A stretch of 64,000 bases of DNA from Chrysoperla carnea. Its lineage: Eukaryota > Arthropoda > Insecta > Neuroptera > Chrysopidae. Within the stretch, counting starts at the first letter, position 1, and each line of letters starts with the position of its first letter. Shown piece by piece: positions 22,335 through 63,480 of this stretch. The notes below the pieces were generated by a model, which saw only the letters and a list, made by a program, of their open reading frames with translations, had not been told where the DNA came from and ran no database searches. The DNA lies in assembly GCF_905475395.1 (NCBI RefSeq), contig NC_058339.1, positions 18,484,001 to 18,548,000 of the forward strand. Reading direction: 5' to 3'. The position numbers and the translations under genes are program-made.

Positions 22335-22710
22335 TTCGGGTCACCAACATTTACTATACATTTAAGCTTTCGTTCTATCTCTAATGGTTTACAAGATGGG
22401 TCCTACGGACCCAAGATCCAATTGACTTATCTTGCTCATTGACGAATTCGACCTCATTTTTTACGTCATAAGAACGCTATAAATTTCTGCTGCATATATC
22501 ATTTTGTTATTGAGTTATCGCGTCCAATGTCAACTCGATATTTTTTTTCAGACAGACAGACAGGTGGACAGCCGGAAATGGACTAATGAAGTGATTTTAT
22601 AAACACCTATACCAAAATTTTGTTCGTTGCATTAATATTTTTAAGCGTTACAAACTTGGAACTAAACTTAATATACCTTGATTTATTTCGTATATACATG
22701 GTATAAAAAT
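22335..22710 (-). repeat. Reverse copy of the GGGTCCGTAGGACCC repeat family
   Basis: On the minus strand the copy runs from tatacatgg and agttccaagtttgtaacgc to acccatcttgtaaacc. It includes the gggtccgtaggaccc palindrome near 22396-22410 and a cagacagacag tract. The segment after the palindrome is shorter than in the 62.9-kb copy. Confidence 0.8.
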
Positions 22711-23669: not shown

Positions 23670-24275
23670 TTATACTATGTATATGAAATATACATAATAT
23701 ATTAAGTTTAGTCCCAAGTTTGTAACGCTAAGAAATATTGATGCAACGAAAAAAATTTTGGTTTAGGTGTTCATAGAATCACATAATTAGTCCATTTCCG
23801 TATGTCTGTCCGCTGTCGTCTGTCCGTCTGTCATCACGATTACTCAAAAACGAAAAGAGATATCAAGCTGAATATATTTATAGTGTGCTTAAGACGTAAA
23901 AAGTGAGGTCGAGTTCGTAAATGGGCAACATAGGTCAATTGGGTCATGGGTTCGTAGGACCCATCTTGTAAACCGTTAGAGATAGAATAAATGTTTAAAT
24001 TTAAAAAATGTTCCTTATAAAAAATAAACAACTTTTGTTTGAAACATTTTCTTGTTAGCATCACTGTTTACCCACGAGGGCACTAATTAGGTGAAAATTT
24101 TGTAGTATGTATTAATTTGGGAATATCAGTTATGTGTGTGTGTGGCTATTTAAGAATTGAAAATTTTCTTTATTTATGTGACGTCAAAAAACAAACGATT
24201 ACGTCATCAAAACTGTCTATACATGGTATTTCAACATTTAACTCAGTCAATTGTTTGTTTTCACTTGTTTGACTA
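23670..24275 (+). repeat. Long copy of the GGGTCCGTAGGACCC repeat family
   Basis: The copy runs from the tatactatgtatatga left end through tttagtcccaagtttgtaac, a gtccgctgtcgtctgtccgt tract and gatatcaagctgaa. It then passes a mutated core (ggttcgtaggaccc) and acccacgagggc to tctatacatggtatt and the caattgtttgttttcacttg tail. It aligns nearly end to end with the copy at 62895. Confidence 0.85.
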
Positions 24276-49364: not shown

Positions 49365-49580
49365 TGTCTCCCTACAGTATATTGTAAAAAAGTTTTGATT
49401 CATATGCACGGTATATGGCATATAAACCAAATACATATTTGTAGTCAAATAATTTGTTATTTTTAACTTTAAAATACCACGCAACTATTTCTTACAATAT
49501 TTATTGTGTACCAAGTACTGTTTACAGTTTTGTTAATATAGATATCTCTCCTCAACCACTAATACTCTAACTATAATATT
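49365..49580 (+). repeat. Dispersed repeat, copy 2 (other copy 30150-30365)
   Basis: It shares gcacggta, catataaaccaaatacat, aaaataccacgcaact and aatactctaactat, in the same order, with the copy in the Drep2 intron. It directly abuts a degraded copy of the GGGTCCGTAGGACCC family. Confidence 0.75.
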
Positions 49581-49855
49581 TCAAACAAAAGTTGTCTATT
49601 TTTTGATAAGAAATATTTTTTATATTTAAACTTTTGTTCTATCTCTAACTGTTTAAAAGATGGGTCCTACAGACCCAAGACCAATATCTCAGACAGACGG
49701 GCAGACAATCGGAAATGAACTAATTAAGTGATTTTATGAACACCTAAACCAAAATTTTGTTCGTATCATCAATATTTTTAATGCGTTACAAACTTGGGAT
49801 TAAACTTAGTATACTTTGATATATATTAAATATATACAGGGTATAAAAATAATTT
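49575..49855 (-). repeat. Internally deleted reverse copy of the GGGTCCGTAGGACCC family
   Basis: The minus strand reads from tataccctgtatata through atcccaagtttgtaacgc and gtctgcccgtctgtctgaga directly into ttgggtctgtaggacccatc. About 110 bp present in full copies is missing between the last two blocks. Confidence 0.75.
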
Positions 49856-55721: not shown

Positions 55722-58700
55722 ATGTCAGATACACGTGTAAAAACAATTTATACGTCTTGTGGCTCTAATAAAACTCCAAATGTTCTGGATTGGGGAACAA
55801 ATAATTTAATTTGTTATGGTGCTGCAAATGCAATTTGTATATGGGATCCAAAAGTAATACAATTTTATTATTTATTAATAAAGGCCTAACATGTGATTAG
55901 TGCTTGTTATTTACTTTACTCCCGTTTGTCACAACAAAACTTAATTCTTTCAAAAAAAATTAGATTTGAATACATGCTTTGTAAAGTTCGTCAGGTACAA
56001 TAGGTCAAATAGGTCACCTCGGTTTACAGTCGCTTTACATCGGTTTACAGTCTAACCGGCTTGACGCATTTCAATTGATTATTATGTTTACAAAATTTCA
56101 ATCTCAACAAAAATTTAAAGAAACTTTATCGCAATATTTAGAGACAAATTAACTGAAATTTGTTTGAGTATACCGAAAGTTCTTTCTTAATATTTATTTG
56201 CGACTTTGAACGACGAAATGATTAAAATAAATATTTATGTCAGTTTTATTTACATATTTTAGGCTACACAAGTTATTTGTACTCTATGCAAACATACAGA
56301 TCGTGTGAATAGTGTATGCTGGATTCGAAAATGTGAAGAAGATAATGGACCTCTAGATATACTATCGGGATCAACAGATAAAACAGCCATTTTGTGGAGA
56401 AATATTGATGGAAAATATATACCACACGTTTTGGCAGGCCACGAGAATGGTGTGACAGTGGTTCATGGAATATATGTCAATGATGTATTGTATTTGGTGA
56501 CAGCATCGATTGATTCAACTGTAAAAGTTTGGATAGAATTAGATGGTAATTATTATTGCAGAATTGAATTGAACGATTATATATTGGTTTAGTAATAGTC
56601 CCGGAGCTGACCGTAAGAACGCGAGCCGATCAGCGGTACGCATAAAATATATTTTCCCTACTACTACTAACCATAGTCAATAGGATGGGGCTTTAGTGCC
56701 TCAACGCAGTGGGCACATATAACATGGGTGCTTTCTTGAAAGTAAAATTTTTGTTGACGAACTGTACCAACTTTGTCCTGCTTGGTAATTACTTTAAAAT
56801 CTTCTATTCATTGAATAGAACAAAATAATATTTAAGTGCCTCGACGCAACCGGTGATAACACGGTGGCACGGATTTTTCAATGAATTTTCCCGTGTGCAC
56901 GAACTATACCCATTCCGATCCGCTTAAAACTTTAACCAAATGAAAATTTAAACAATTTTATATACAAAAAAAAATAAGTGCCTCATTAGTTGCGGTTCTA
57001 TATGCCTGGCAGGACGCCTAACATTTCGCGAGCTCCTATGCTACTATGTAGATAACTCTTCCGTCCGTCCGTCCGTCTGTGGTCACGATTACTCAAAAAC
57101 GAAAAGAGATATCAAGCTGAAATTTTTACAGCGTGCTTAGGACGTAAAAAGTGAGGTCAAGTTCGTAAATGAGCAACATGGGTCAATTGGGTCATGGGTC
57201 CGTAGTACCCATCTTGTAAACCGTTAGAGATAGAATGAAAGTTTAAATGTAAAAAATGTTCCTTACAAAAAAATAAACAACTTTTGTTTGAAACATTTTT
57301 TTGTAAACATCACTGTTTACCCACGAGGGCGTTAATTAGGTACAAATTTTATAGTATGTATGTATTAATATAGGAATATCAAAGTGAATATCTTTTGTTA
57401 TTTACATGACGTCAAAAAAAAACAAACGATTGCGCATCAACACTTGCGCATTATATGAGAATATCAGTTAAATATGTCAGATATGTATGTATGTATGTGA
57501 AATGTGACAGAGTTATCAACACTGCCTATACATGGTATTTCAACAATTAACTCAGTCAATTGTTTGTTTTCACTTGTTTAGAGTGCTTTTAATATTTTGC
57601 TCAATTAAAAGCCTTATAAAACGATAAAAATGAAAAATCAGTGCTTTTTATGCCGTTGTGGTGAAAATTTGGTACCTTTTGATCAAACTCATTTCGAAAA
57701 GGCCAGACGAATGGCAATGTATCGAAAATATAAAAACCATAAATACGGAGACATTGATTTTCCTACAACAATGGAAAACGCTATGTATCATCCTGAGTGT
57801 TATGGAAAATTCGTGGTATTGAAAGCAAAATATAAAGAAGAATTTAACATGATGTTACAACGTGAAGGTGTAAGTATGATTTTGAAAATATATGAACTTA
57901 TTAATTATGATATTATTATTTTCGATAATTACTGGTTCATATTTTACACTGATTGAAGTGTCATAATTAAATAATTCTGAAACTAACTACTTCTTTCATT
58001 ATTATACCTAAGATATTCGATAATTTTTTAGCTTCCCGATAATGCTGCTGCTGGTAACCTTGAACAACCAGAAAATAGTGGAGCCAGAGGCGTATTAGGC
58101 CATAAGCAAAGGGCCTCCACCAGTAGTTCTCATAATGCATATCTGACATATTTAACTGATATTCTCATATAATGCGCAAGTGTTGATGCACAATCGTTTG
58201 TTTTTTTTTGACGTCATGTAAATAACAAAAGATATTCACTTTGATATTCCTATATTAATACATACATACTATAAAATTTGTACCTAATTAACGCCCTCGT
58301 GGGTAAACAGTGATGTTTACAAAAAAAATGTTTCAAACAAAAGTTGATTATTTTTTTGTAAGGAACATTTTTTACATTTAAACTTTCATTCTATCTCTAA
58401 CGGTTTACAAGATGGGTACTACGGACCCATGACCCAATTGACCCATGTTGCTCATTTACGAACTTGACCTCACTTTTTACGTCCTAAGCACGCTGTAAAA
58501 ATTTCAGCTTGATATCTCTTTTCGTTTTTGAGTAATCGTGACCACAGACGGACGGACGGACGGAAGAGTTATCTACATAGTAGCACAGGAGCTCGCGAAA
58601 TGTTAGGCGTCCTGCCAGGCATATAGAACCGCAACTAATGAGGCACTTATTTTTTTTTGTATATAAAATTGTTTAAATTTTCATTTGGTTAAAGTTTTAA

Positions 58701-61700
58701 GCGGATCGGAATGGGTATAGTTCGTGCACACGGGAAAATTCATTGAAAAATCCGTGCCACCGTGTTATCACCGGTTGCGTCGAGGCACTTAAATATTATT
58801 TTGTTCTATTCAATGAATAGAAGATTTTAAAGTAATTACCAAGCAGGACAAAGTTGGTACAGTTCGTCAACAAAAATTTTACTTTCAAGAAAGCACCCAT
58901 GTTATATGTGCCCACTGCGTTGAGGCACTAAAGCCCCATCCTATTGACTATGGTTAGTAGTAGTAGGGAAAATATATTTTATGCGTACCGCTGATCGGCT
59001 CGCGTTCTTACGGTCAGCTCCGGGACTATAAGAGGTTTGGATACTGAAACACAACCACCCTTGAAGCCATTACGCATCAATAAGTCTGTATCCTTTCTTC
59101 AAGTGATATCGATTTTCGAGCAAAACCAATTTAGGATTTTAATTCTTGGAAAAAATAGAGCGTAATAGGTGGCGTTTAGAGAAAATTTTTCTCTCTACAG
59201 CCATACGAGCCTACTTTATCTGTCTTTATTTGTCTCTCTGCACTCTGCAGCTATACGCGCCTACCTTATCTGTCTTTATTTGTCTCCCTCCTGCTATACG
59301 CGCCTACTTTATCTGTCTCTTTCTTTACTGTGATCAGTTTGGGCGGCGACTTTGTGATCTCTATGGCTTGAAATGACATATTTATTTTCTATATTCTTTT
59401 TCAATGCCGAAACAGTATCGAATATCGATAAATAGATATGTATAAAAAAATACACGGCTATGTTACATAATTTGTTGATTAACTGAGAATTTTTAAAATT
59501 AAAATCCAATACGATTGGGTTATTTGTAAGAAATTTAATGACTAATTATGATTTTTTAGGAACATTTTCCTGTATACAAACCATTAACTTTCCATCTGGT
59601 ATCTGTATATCTCTGCGAGCACACAAAATAAGTATCAATAATGTCGATGTACCTTTATTGGCTTGTTCTGCATCAAATTCTAAAATTTTGCTTTATAGTG
59701 GACAGTTAAATAACGAAAATCGTTATGAATTTAAAATAATCGAAACTTTAGTTGGTCATGAAGGTTGGATTAATGGAATGGATTTTTCAACTGATGGTAA
59801 TATCAATTTTTAATGTAAAACATGAATCAGAACTCTGATCCTGACGTCACTTCAATAATTGTTTTGATTGCTTCAAATAACTTTTCTAGCCTACCTTGAT
59901 AAGTTTTCACGTTTCCTTCAAAATATAATAATTTGAAAAGTTTTTTTCTCAAATCTGAACGATAAAAAACCTATAAAAGTATTGGGCTAGGCACTTTAAT
60001 TTGCATGAATGAAAACATTAACATCATAATTAGCGTGAGCGTCTCAGGTTTTGATTCCTGGTCAATGTTTCTGGTTAAATATTCGTCTGTTAATTTTTTA
60101 GTTATCATAGAGAAAGCATTTATATATTTTTTATTTCAATAGATAACGGTGATATTCTGTTAGCTAGTTGTTCAAAAGATTCGTACATTCGAGTTTGGAA
60201 ATTGAAAAAAGTTGATGTATCAGCCGATACTGTTGAAAACGAGAAAGGAACAATTCAAATTGATAAAAAGTTAATAACTATTTCATTAAATGAGAAAGCA
60301 CATACATTTACTGTTTCTTTGGAATCCGTATTAGCTGGACATGAAGGTTGGATTTATGGTATACATTGGCATCCACGAATTAATGGTAAACAACCAATGA
60401 AATTACTTTCTTCGTCAATGGATAGAACCATTATATTATGGAGTCAAGATCCAAATTCTGAATTGTGGATAGATACGGTTCGAGTGGGTGAAGTTGGTGG
60501 AAATACTTTAGGATTTTATGGCGGTAAATTTTCACCAAATGGAAATCAAATTCTAGGATATGGATATCAAGGATCATTTCATTTATGGTCTTTTAATGAT
60601 GTAAGTTAAAATATCAGACTATCAGAAAAATAGAAATATATTTGTGAAAACGAAATTAGTTAATTAATCATATTTAATTGATATGCCTTTATTAGGTTGA
60701 ATCTACCTGGAATCCGGATGTTATTGTCGGTGGACATTTCAATGAAGTTGTGGATATTGCTTGGGAACCTCAAGGTCAATTTCTATTGTCTGTCAGTACA
60801 GATCAAACGACAAGACTTCATGGTTTATGGATTCCAAACGATGATGAACGTTGGCAATTTACAGTAAGTTTAGTAGTTTACCTTGCCAAAGCGATTGAAT
60901 TTTGTAATATTAATTGAAAAAATTGTATTTTAGAGTTGCTGGCATGAAATTGCACGACCACAAGTTCATGGATATGATATGTCGTGCATTGCAGTTCTTT
61001 CAAGATATCAATTTGCTTCAGGAGCTGAAGAAAAAATAATTCGAGCATTTAAAGCACCTACAACTTTCGTAAAAAATTTCCATAATATTTGTAAAATCAA
61101 AGATGATATTGAAGGAAATGAAATTAAAGGTAATGAATGAACAATTATGTTTATACCCTGCACTCATGTAGTACATCAGGAGTTAGTTAAATTTTGTAAC
61201 TCTTAAAAATGCTGATAGAGATATTTCCGAGATATTTAGGTGTATAGATTAAAATGGCCACTCTCTATAACACATTTATCAGTCTTAATAATATTAATAA
61301 TATATAAGTTTTACTTTATTCATAATAAAAATAATATATAAATTAAAATTACGTTGCTTTTTGTAAAAAAAAGGTAATGTTGATGAATTTAAACAACAGC
61401 TGATCATTGCATTTGACAGTTAAATTTTATTCAAGTCAGTTTTAAAAAATGTTTTTATGAATTATTATTAATACGTATTAAATTTGATCAATTTTTTTGT
61501 ATCATTAGTTGTAAAAAACAATTAAAAATGATAACTGATTTGACTAGACTATTTTCCGACTCGATACTGCTATACTACCTTAATATGCATGCTTATGGAT
61601 ATTAAGGTAGTATAGCAATATAAATAGTTCCAACATGAATATTCAAGTATATGCAGTATATTTAAATATATAATTGATTTGTTGTTATCTTCTCTTCTTT

Positions 61701-62669
61701 TTAATTGTGATTTGCTCTTGAAAATATGTTTTAGATTCAATATTACCAAAAGGAGCATCTGTTCCATCATTGGGCTTATCAAATAAAGCTGTTTATGAAT
61801 CTGATCAAAAAGAAAATATAGAATCTAATTCAAAGGAAGCATATCCTGATACATCTTTCTTTAATGAAATAGAATTAATAGAACCACCTACAGAAGAAAA
61901 TCTAATACAGAATACATTGTGGCCAGAAGTACAAAAATTATATGGCCATGGATTTGAATTGTATTCAATGGCTTCCACTTCTGATGGTCAAATTTTAGCG
62001 TCTGCATCCAAAGCAACAAAATTAGAACATGCTGCTATATTAATATGGGATACAACTGAATGGAAATTAGTGCAAAAACTTCTTTCTCATAATTTAACTG
62101 TAACACAATTATCATTTTCACCAGACAACAATCGATTGTTATCCGTATCACGAGATCGAAGATGGTCGATATTTCAAAAGATAGAAGGAACTAAAAATCA
62201 ATTTCAATTAATTGCTTGTACAGATAAAAAAAGTGCTATTCATTCTCGTATCATTTGGTGTTGTTCCTGGTCATTTGACTCAAAATATTTCGGTACGGGA
62301 TCTCGAGATGGAAAAGCTGTAATTTGGGAGGCTGATAAAGTAGTTGCTATGAAGGAGGTAAATGGAAGTATCCTAGAACAAAAGAATCAATCTATTACTG
62401 CGTTATCCATTGCACCTAAATGTATTAATGGAAATTACTTGGTGGCAGTTGGTTTTGAAATTGGTATTATTGTTCTATACAAATGGTCTTTGGAGAATGG
62501 TTGGACGCATTGGAAAGTTTTGGAACAAGAAAATGCACATCATAAAACTGTCAAAAGATTAACATTTCGTCCGTTATCAGCTTCAAATAATGAAAACATT
62601 TTATATTTAGCTAGTTGTGGATCTGATCATATGGTCCGAATATTTGAAATAAATGTTTCAGAATTATAA
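55722..62669 (+). CDS. Elp2: Elp2, WD40 subunit of the Elongator complex
   Basis: Exons are 55722-55853, 56263-56545, 59560-59796, 60143-60600, 60696-60863, 60934-61129 and 61735-62669. All join in frame to 802 aa, close to human ELP2 (826 as recalled). Elp2 is a scaffold of the Elp1-Elp2-Elp3 core, which modifies wobble uridines in tRNAs. The sequence is a double WD40 propeller with repeats such as [48 protein letters not shown] and [13 protein letters not shown]. Family signatures are [47 protein letters not shown] and [17 protein letters not shown]. The start is the first ATG, giving the expected N-terminus ([15 protein letters not shown]). Intron 2 (3.0 kb) is inflated by a foldback transposon. 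Without it the intron would be about 0.6 kb. Confidence 0.97.
56596..57485 (+). repeat. Left arm of the foldback element
   Basis: Subterminal motifs occur at about 56695 (agtgcctcaacgca), 56834 (aagtgcctcgacgca) and 56976 (aagtgcctcattag). The inner half, from the ccgtccgtccgtccgtctgt tract at 57061 onwards, is homologous to the repeat copies at 23670 and 62895. Its core reads gggtccgtagtaccc. Confidence 0.93.
57630..58172 (+). CDS. Two-exon passenger frame in the foldback element, CxxC..HxxC protein
   Basis: Exon 57630-57869 ends at a strong GTAAGT donor. Exon 58032-58172 follows a TTTTTTAG acceptor. The join is in frame and gives 126 aa, with the stop inside the right arm. Residues Cys5, Cys8, Cys10 and then His54 and Cys57 ([21 protein letters not shown]) look like a metal-binding N-terminal module. 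Similar openings occur, as I recall, in large uncharacterised arthropod proteins often linked with transposons. The downstream half is Ser/Asn-rich. I read it as a captured gene fragment or a remnant passenger gene. Expression is unknown, and its function is unrecognised. Confidence 0.55.
58138..59028 (-). repeat. Right arm of the foldback element
   Basis: It is the inverted copy of 56596-57485, differing at only a few positions I could see (for example gcgcatcaacac against gtgcatcaacac, and one base in the aaataaacaactttt region). The low divergence implies recent insertion or gene conversion between arms. Confidence 0.93.
59195..59335 (+). repeat. Minisatellite, three units of about 45 bp, in Elp2 intron 2
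   Basis: Units begin at about 59201, 59249 and 59292 with (c/g)(c/t)(c/a)tacg(a/c)gcctac, followed by tttatctgtct. They lie just right of the foldback element, in unusually C/T-rich DNA. The unit sequence does not occur in the foldback arms. Confidence 0.75.
61568..61617. repeat. Perfect 19-bp hairpin in Elp2 intron 6
   Basis: tgctatactaccttaatat (61568-61586) pairs exactly with atattaaggtagtatagca (61599-61617) across a 12-base loop, gcatgcttatgg. It lies about 120 bp before the last Elp2 exon. Confidence 0.8.
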
Positions 62670-62894: not shown

Positions 62895-63480
62895 ATACCA
62901 TGTATATATGAAATGAACATAGTATATAAAGTTTAGTCCCAAGTTTGTAACGGCTAAAAATATTGATGCTACGAAAAAAATTTTGGTATAGGTGTTCATA
63001 GAATTACCTAATTAGTCCATTTACGGTTGTCTGTCCGTCTGTCTGCCAACACGATAACTCAAAAATAAAAAGAGATATCAAGATGAAATTTTTATAGCGT
63101 ACTCAGGACGTAAAAAGTGAATTCGAGTTCGTAAATAAGCAACATAGGTAAATTGGGTCTTGGGTCCGTAGGACCCATCTTGTAAACCGTTAGAGATAGA
63201 ACAAAAGTTTAAATGTAAAAAATGTTCCTTATACCAAAATAAACAACTTTTGTTTGAAACATTTTCTTGTAAACATCACTGTTTACCCACGAGGGCGCTA
63301 ATTAGGTGAAAATTTTGTAGTATTTATTAACATGGGAATATCAGTTATGTGTGGCTATTTTAGAGTAGAAATCTTTCTTTATTTACGTGACGTCAAAAAA
63401 CAAACGATTGCGTCATCAAAACTGTCTATACATGGTATTTCAACAATTAACTCAGTCAATTGTTTGGTTTCACTTGTTTT
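62895..63480 (+). repeat. Best-preserved solo copy of the GGGTCCGTAGGACCC repeat family
   Basis: It runs from ataccatgtatatatga through tttagtcccaagtttgtaac, tgtctgtccgtctgtctgcc, a perfect gggtccgtaggaccc palindrome, cttgtaaaccgttagagata and acccacgagggcgctaatta to tctatacatggtatttcaac. The end motifs ataccatgtata and tatacatggtat are inverted to each other. There is no reading frame of note. Confidence 0.85.

Follow-up and report, generated by a model that had tools for sequence, protein, structure and literature searches.

A foldback element in an Elp2 intron of Chrysoperla carnea and its probable origin from an Academ-like DNA transposon

Introduction

A transposable element that consists mostly of two long inverted arms raises the question of how such arms came to be and why they are so alike. 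The question is posed here by an element that lies in an intron of the Elp2 gene of Chrysoperla carnea, within a stretch of 64,000 nucleotides (NCBI RefSeq assembly GCF_905475395.1, contig NC_058339.1, positions 18,484,001 to 18,548,000 of the forward strand) that is called the window and whose numbering is used throughout. An earlier note on this DNA described the element as a young foldback transposon, datable by the identity of its arms, and as a chimera of its own termini with the core of a dispersed family. The comparison of related loci across the genome makes it likely that the element descends from a cut-and-paste DNA transposon of Academ-like type, as a non-autonomous foldback derivative that was probably generated through gap repair with template switching. 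Its termini and core come from the family represented by a parent-like copy (L023), and the same chimeric unit is found at many sites bordered by 3-bp duplications.

Structure of the element

Self-comparison places two inverted arms of 890 bp each (56596-57485 and 58138/58139-59028) around a centre of 652 bp (57486-58137), just where the earlier note had put them. In this comparison 708 nt match at 100% and 222 nt at 93% without gaps, and within the 890 bp the arms differ by three substitutions (57038, 57277 and 57433) and one indel of 1 nt (57295). The element has TAGTCC termini, and the direct repeat TAA that had been noticed at the flanks is present on both sides. With arms that make up most of its length and a centre that is small, the element belongs to the foldback type. 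Its parts are as follows:

56596..59028, plus strand: whole foldback element, 2433 bp, TAGTCCCGG...CCGGGACTA (sequence, self-comparison)
56593..56595, unstranded: left target-site duplication TAA (read from the sequence)
59029..59031, unstranded: right target-site duplication TAA (read from the sequence)
56596..57061, plus strand: left terminal repeat, equivalent to L023 element 1-466 (98.9%; mapping on L023)
57060..57578, plus strand: dispersed-repeat fragment of 518 bp (positions 153-667 of 667 bp), inner left arm, with a 2-bp overlap with the terminal repeat
57574..58139, plus strand: parent segment of 566 bp, equivalent to L023 element 1364-1929 (98.6%), 5' part of the parent gene (mapping on L023)
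57630..57869, plus strand: first coding exon of the parent gene, Cys/His-rich, 80 aa, with a GT donor at 57870 (sequence, relatives of the exon)
58033..58139, plus strand: start of the second exon (acceptor by eye, AG 58031-58032), cut at the rearrangement junction
58127..58564, minus strand: inverted dispersed-repeat fragment, inner right arm, with an apparent 13-bp overlap with the parent segment (mapping on the repeat)
58563..59028, minus strand: right terminal repeat, inverted L023 1-466 (98.7%; mapping on L023)

Read from left to right, the order is L023 1-466, repeat 153-667, L023 1364-1929, repeat 590-153 inverted and L023 466-1. The element is indeed a chimera, as had been claimed, but the dispersed piece is not its core: this repeat forms the inner half of both arms, and the centre is mostly a 5' gene segment of the parent. 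Nor are the termini separate and its own, as had been thought, given that they are 98.7-98.9% identical to those of L023, a copy of 7826 bp in the same genome. The spliced reading frame proposed for the centre is plausible, with the exon, donor and acceptor listed above.

Further copies of the dispersed repeat lie in the window at 22346-22526, 23817-24270, 49575-49682 and 63029-63479, with identities of 80-94% depending on the piece. A genome search with the whole arm as query returned 4504 candidates (40 of them scored), so the repeat is probably very abundant.

A family of loci with the same termini

The genome (559 Mb) was searched for the family with a terminal pattern of 31 bases, allowing at most three mismatches and with a control pattern alongside. 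The pattern was matched 32 times (16 forward and 16 reverse) and the control not once; 28 of the 32 matches are perfect, four have a single mismatch and none has two or three, which points to a recent expansion of the family. A search with the 466-bp terminus, in which all of its 32 candidates were scored, gave 30 full-length arms with identities of 98-100%. The youth that the earlier note had proposed therefore holds for the family, by virtue of this family-wide identity of the termini.

Seventeen loci have these termini: 14 long paired elements (the window element, or WIN, together with L009-L012, L014-L021 and L023), two single arms (L013 and L022) and a 108-bp palindrome of the terminus (L061, at 263-370 of that locus, with TTA duplications on either side); an extra fragment (L062) matches over 99 bp with 88% identity. 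The palindrome is taken to be a miniature end product within this family. The 14 long elements are spread over five of the large contigs, and perfect 3-bp target duplications are present at 13 of the 15 paired loci checked, against 0.35 expected by chance. At L018 the flanks, once joined, match uninterrupted paralogous copies of the dispersed repeat, one of them in the window at 23997-24162 (92.8%), and the boundaries of the element are thereby confirmed; a search for such empty sites, made for 15 loci in six sequences (the first 56.3 kb of the window and five loci of the dispersed repeat), was positive for L018 alone. The occurrence of the same layouts at different sites, with duplications of their own in all except L015, indicates that the foldback is mobile. 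Because L061 measures only 108 bp, this one locus suggests that a terminus of about 54-60 bp may be enough for mobility.

By eye, a long insertion in the right arm of L011 (2357-6516), with two large open reading frames (ORFs), resembles a non-LTR (long terminal repeat) retrotransposon, and minus-strand ORFs beside the single-arm copy L022 (3119-8573) resemble a BEL-type retroelement.

The parent-like copy and its gene family

The parental layout is preserved in L023, which has terminal repeats of 797 bp, long ORFs and a broken gene. The family to which this gene belongs is large and diverse: at least 80 matches came from the 78 candidates scored of 491, and in several of the members listed a frame of 1378-1588 aa runs without interruption. 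The first exon seen in the window element, of 80 aa, has relatives that lie upstream of long ORFs, as at C5:66306027 before L059. In the stretches of L059 and L060 that were examined, which may stop short of the element ends, no inverted repeat or matching terminus was found. Four other places in the gene family with equal scores (C3:8845463, C3:16663027, C6:10694308 and C6:10894834) have uninterrupted frames of 1533 aa and suggest another recently active lineage.

In all seven of the aligned family members, L023 included, there are invariant acidic residues in the order D...D...ExD...DxD...GxD. The alignment was compared by hhalign with pieces of this genome's own genes, found as Pfam XPG_I matches, which we take to be EXO1-, FEN1- and XPG-like. 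The GCDY motif was aligned with a score of 34.1 (E 0.0014), which exceeds those of 300 out of 300 column shuffles (maximum 25.4) and of the reversed control (14.1). It is probable, on this comparison, that the gene family carries an XPG/FEN-like nuclease domain. Autonomous Academ elements encode an XPG-type nuclease. As far as the available text of the source goes, target duplications of AcademX are 3-4 bp long, and AcademX, like AcademH, codes for a helicase and a nuclease (PMC10045372); the 3-bp duplications and the probable nuclease of the family described here fit AcademX.

Layouts and junctions across the family

Thirteen elements were mapped, with L023 and the 667-bp dispersed repeat as references. 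The chimeric junction, in which position 466 of the terminus meets position 153 of the repeat, is present at 12 of the 17 loci (11 of the 13 mapped elements and L013); in L012 and L017 the terminus joins the repeat at 163 instead, within a tetranucleotide array. The whole dispersed repeat stands in L021 directly after position 1368 of L023 and is followed by a deletion to 5226, which suggests a single entry of the repeat near 1364 that preceded the other changes.

The inner junctions of the window element are common to L009, L010 and L011, and L009 and L011 share an extra deletion in the left repeat. A second layout is that of L012 and L017, a third, close to L014, is that of L015 and L016, and L018 and L019 each have their own. 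L020 lacks the dispersed repeat and is built as a foldback from the initial 1.7 kb of the parent; arms in other members reach 1.7 kb, and L015 and L016 are near-complete palindromes. The centres of L014-L016 could not be mapped cleanly; these elements contain the final 146 codons of the L023 transposase ORF (residues 415-560) as inverted copies, six in all, of which one stops at 548. The pieces joined at the inner junctions overlap by 7 bp in L012 and L017, 8 bp in L014-L016, 3 bp in L019, 2 bp in L020 and an apparent 13 bp in the group of the window element.

Copying between the arms

The arms were compared over 822 aligned bp in eight of the 14 long paired elements, those with complete chimeric arms on both sides; L011, L018, L019, L020, L021 and L023, in which the chimeric stretch is incomplete or interrupted, were left out. 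The two arms of an element differ on average at 1.25 positions and arms of different elements at 4.75, and none of 10,000 random pairings of arms was as tight as the real one. The alignment has 24 variable columns: in 14 the variant belongs to a single one of the eight elements and is present in both its arms, in ten it occurs in one arm only, and in none is it common to two of the eight. Five of those 14 form a cluster of L017 at the edge of the alignment, and one variant of L009 is also present in both arms of L011, an element outside the eight. The means are 1.25 and 3.25 when the alignment is cut before that edge (0 of 10,000), 1.29 and 3.00 when the edge and L017 are removed (1 of 10,000), and 0.67 and 2.33 when the edge, L016 and L017 are removed (3 of 10,000).

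Since sister elements with the same inner junctions have different variants, each in both arms, copying between arms took place after each of these layouts arose. The arms of one element, as judged from these patterns, stay alike at least partly through copying between its ends, and arms homogenised in this way are no clock. The dating of the insertion by arm divergence, on which the earlier note relied, was rejected for this reason: substitutions absent from the sisters are common to both arms. The mutation rate of flies is near 3e-9 per site per generation, and, with the 4.75 differences over 822 bp between elements, it gives a rough age of the order of a million generations, which should carry no weight beyond the word young.

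Proposed origin and alternatives

The proposed course of events would begin with a parent copy that received the dispersed repeat near its position 1364, followed by a deletion that would have joined the terminus, at position 466, to the repeat, at its position 153. After excision or breakage, gap repair would have switched template to the other end of the element, often at short homologies, and the left end would have been copied inverted onto the right, giving rise to several foldback layouts. The foldbacks would then move in trans, with the transposase of a related element, for whose recognition some 60 bp of terminus would be enough, and their arms would go on converting each other.

Several observations weigh against this scheme or parts of it. 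Among the 15 paired loci checked, L015 and L023 have no matching 3-bp duplication. Homogenisation is uneven: when the 466-bp terminus alone is compared, the two arms are 5 differences apart in L016 and in L020 and 6 apart in L021, with many arms of other elements as near, and the private changes of the window element are found only in its right arm. The overlap at the inner junction of L018 is 0 bp, and a gap of 16 bases lies inside its repeat; there is a 1-base gap at the second junction in L012 and L017 and a 3-base gap in L021. When L023 is set against the 1398-aa ORF of L059, an in-frame stop, a frame change and a missing stretch appear, which make a working protein from L023 as assembled unlikely, and none of the loci found with these termini has an intact transposase. 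Regarding the Academ assignment, Pfam scans of the parent proteins (L023 and L059) gave no relevant family and PDB sequence searches of the parent proteins no relevant match. The hhalign probability is only 18% (1.1%, with E 0.048, against the EXO1-like protein alone), and the motif-order pattern (0 of 20,000 shuffles), having been written after the alignment was seen, is supportive only. Finally, the likeness to AcademX is judged from its published description.

The view of the earlier note, namely that the arms are alike solely because the insertion is very recent, with no copying between them, is improbable. The family is young either way, as its 30 full arms of 98-100% identity indicate, and this view would accommodate both the private changes in the right arm alone and the fact that arms of different elements can be identical (minimum 0). 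It is contradicted by three sets of sisters (WIN, L009 and L010; L012 and L017; L015 and L016) that share inner junctions, yet differ in both arms at once, a result that persists when the alignment edge is cut off and the elements that diverge most are left out. That an assembler duplicated one arm in inverted orientation is hardly conceivable: near-palindromes are hard to assemble and L015 has no target duplication, but the same termini frame 14 long paired loci on five of the large contigs, which makes a local inversion artefact very unlikely. The left flank of the window element is, moreover, single-copy (its single match in the genome search is itself), the arms differ in sequence, and 3-bp duplications accompany 13 of the 15 paired loci.

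It is quite improbable that the element belongs to a classical foldback family unrelated to L023, be it FB, Galileo of the P superfamily or a Mutator-like foldback. The long arms, small centre and structural variety are like those of Galileo and Tetris (PMC4168063, PMC4079207; both cited as far as their available text goes). Against this stand the 3-bp duplications, compared with 8-10 bp in Tetris (PMC4079207), and the identity of 98-99% of termini and core to L023, from a gene family with a probable XPG-like domain. As for the process itself, replication slippage or hairpin-primed copying, instead of gap repair after transposase cuts, is a possible though rather unlikely source of the foldbacks. 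Any kind of template switch could leave short overlaps at the inner junctions, and the data do not separate these processes; the layouts share the ends of one transposon family, the only one surveyed for foldbacks, and this would favour breaks made by its transposase and, with them, the gap-repair origin proposed here.

The host gene and a possible hairpin RNA

56546..59559, plus strand: Elp2 intron with the element inside; about 0.58 kb remain when the element and one TAA are subtracted (exon matches; GT/AG by eye)

The element takes up most of this 3-kb intron. The segment of the window at 61722-62666 has Elongator complex protein 2 as its top PDB sequence match (8ptx, E 4e-79), and the exon that ends at 56545 matches WD40 proteins generally, with other WD40 proteins as its top matches and an E value of 2.7e-12 against Elp2 chains over residues 50-143. 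The claimed insertion into an Elp2 intron (intron 2 in the earlier note) is borne out as regards the host gene by the PDB match. The element is most likely a passenger. Downstream of it, at 59193-59332, the intron contains three imperfect copies of a 47-bp pyrimidine-rich unit, 43-50 bp apart.

By analogy, foldbacks might be natural hairpin-RNA genes that silence their own transposon family in trans via small interfering RNAs (siRNAs), which is considered unlikely. If it were the case, an almost perfect hairpin of the terminus, 890 bp long, would be part of the Elp2 pre-mRNA, and read-through of the inverted transposase-ORF copies of L014-L016 would yield siRNAs against the autonomous element. 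Going by their likeness to Mu killer of maize, L014-L016 may be better candidates for such a role than the window element.

Comparison with known foldback systems

The target duplication of Galileo is 7 bp long and that of the Drosophila FB elements 9 bp, as opposed to 3 bp in the window family; Galileo also has a transposase of another family, and no Pfam transposase was matched in the L023 or L059 proteins. In the available text of the source, Galileo (P superfamily, Drosophila) has long foldback-like terminal repeats and structurally defective copies, as the window family does, and what is indicated for the P superfamily is a gap repair of low efficiency that aborts, slips or switches template (PMC4168063). 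Tetris of Drosophila virilis, according to the portion available, is likewise a modular, rearranged and non-autonomous foldback, with ends common to a miniature element; it differs in its duplications of 8-10 bp, in the tandem repeats inside its arms and in that an autonomous copy was not found (PMC4079207), whereas the window family includes a parent-like copy, though broken. Galileo and Tetris are the nearest structural precedents.

The likeness to AcademX lies in the 3-bp duplications, which fall within the 3-4 bp given in the available description (PMC10045372), and in a large protein with a probable XPG/FEN-like nuclease domain; the window element differs in being non-autonomous and foldback-shaped. 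No foldback derivative of Academ was found in a literature search that included the available text of PMC10045372 and PMC10294476, most subscription papers lying outside it. In the Mu killer locus of maize, a transposase gene and terminal repeats are partly duplicated in inverted orientation, and silencing by hairpin RNA has been proposed, as far as the accessible part of the source reports (PMC3440606). L014-L016 also carry a partial inverted transposase gene with terminal repeats; the window family, unlike Mu killer with its proposed silencing, is known from DNA alone.

A single genome thus contains a broken parent-like copy, an intermediate with the whole repeat (L021), several layouts and an end product of 108 bp. 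Foldbacks can turn up without a parent, as Tetris did in the account available (PMC4079207). In the present family the parent-like copy, the intermediate and the products occur together, with full-length termini 98-100% alike, and for this reason the origin of the foldbacks and the copying between their arms become directly traceable. The identity of the arms is unsuitable for dating foldback insertions. With respect to Galileo and Tetris, the differences lie in the parent family and in the co-presence of a parent-like copy, an intermediate and products, and not in a new principle.

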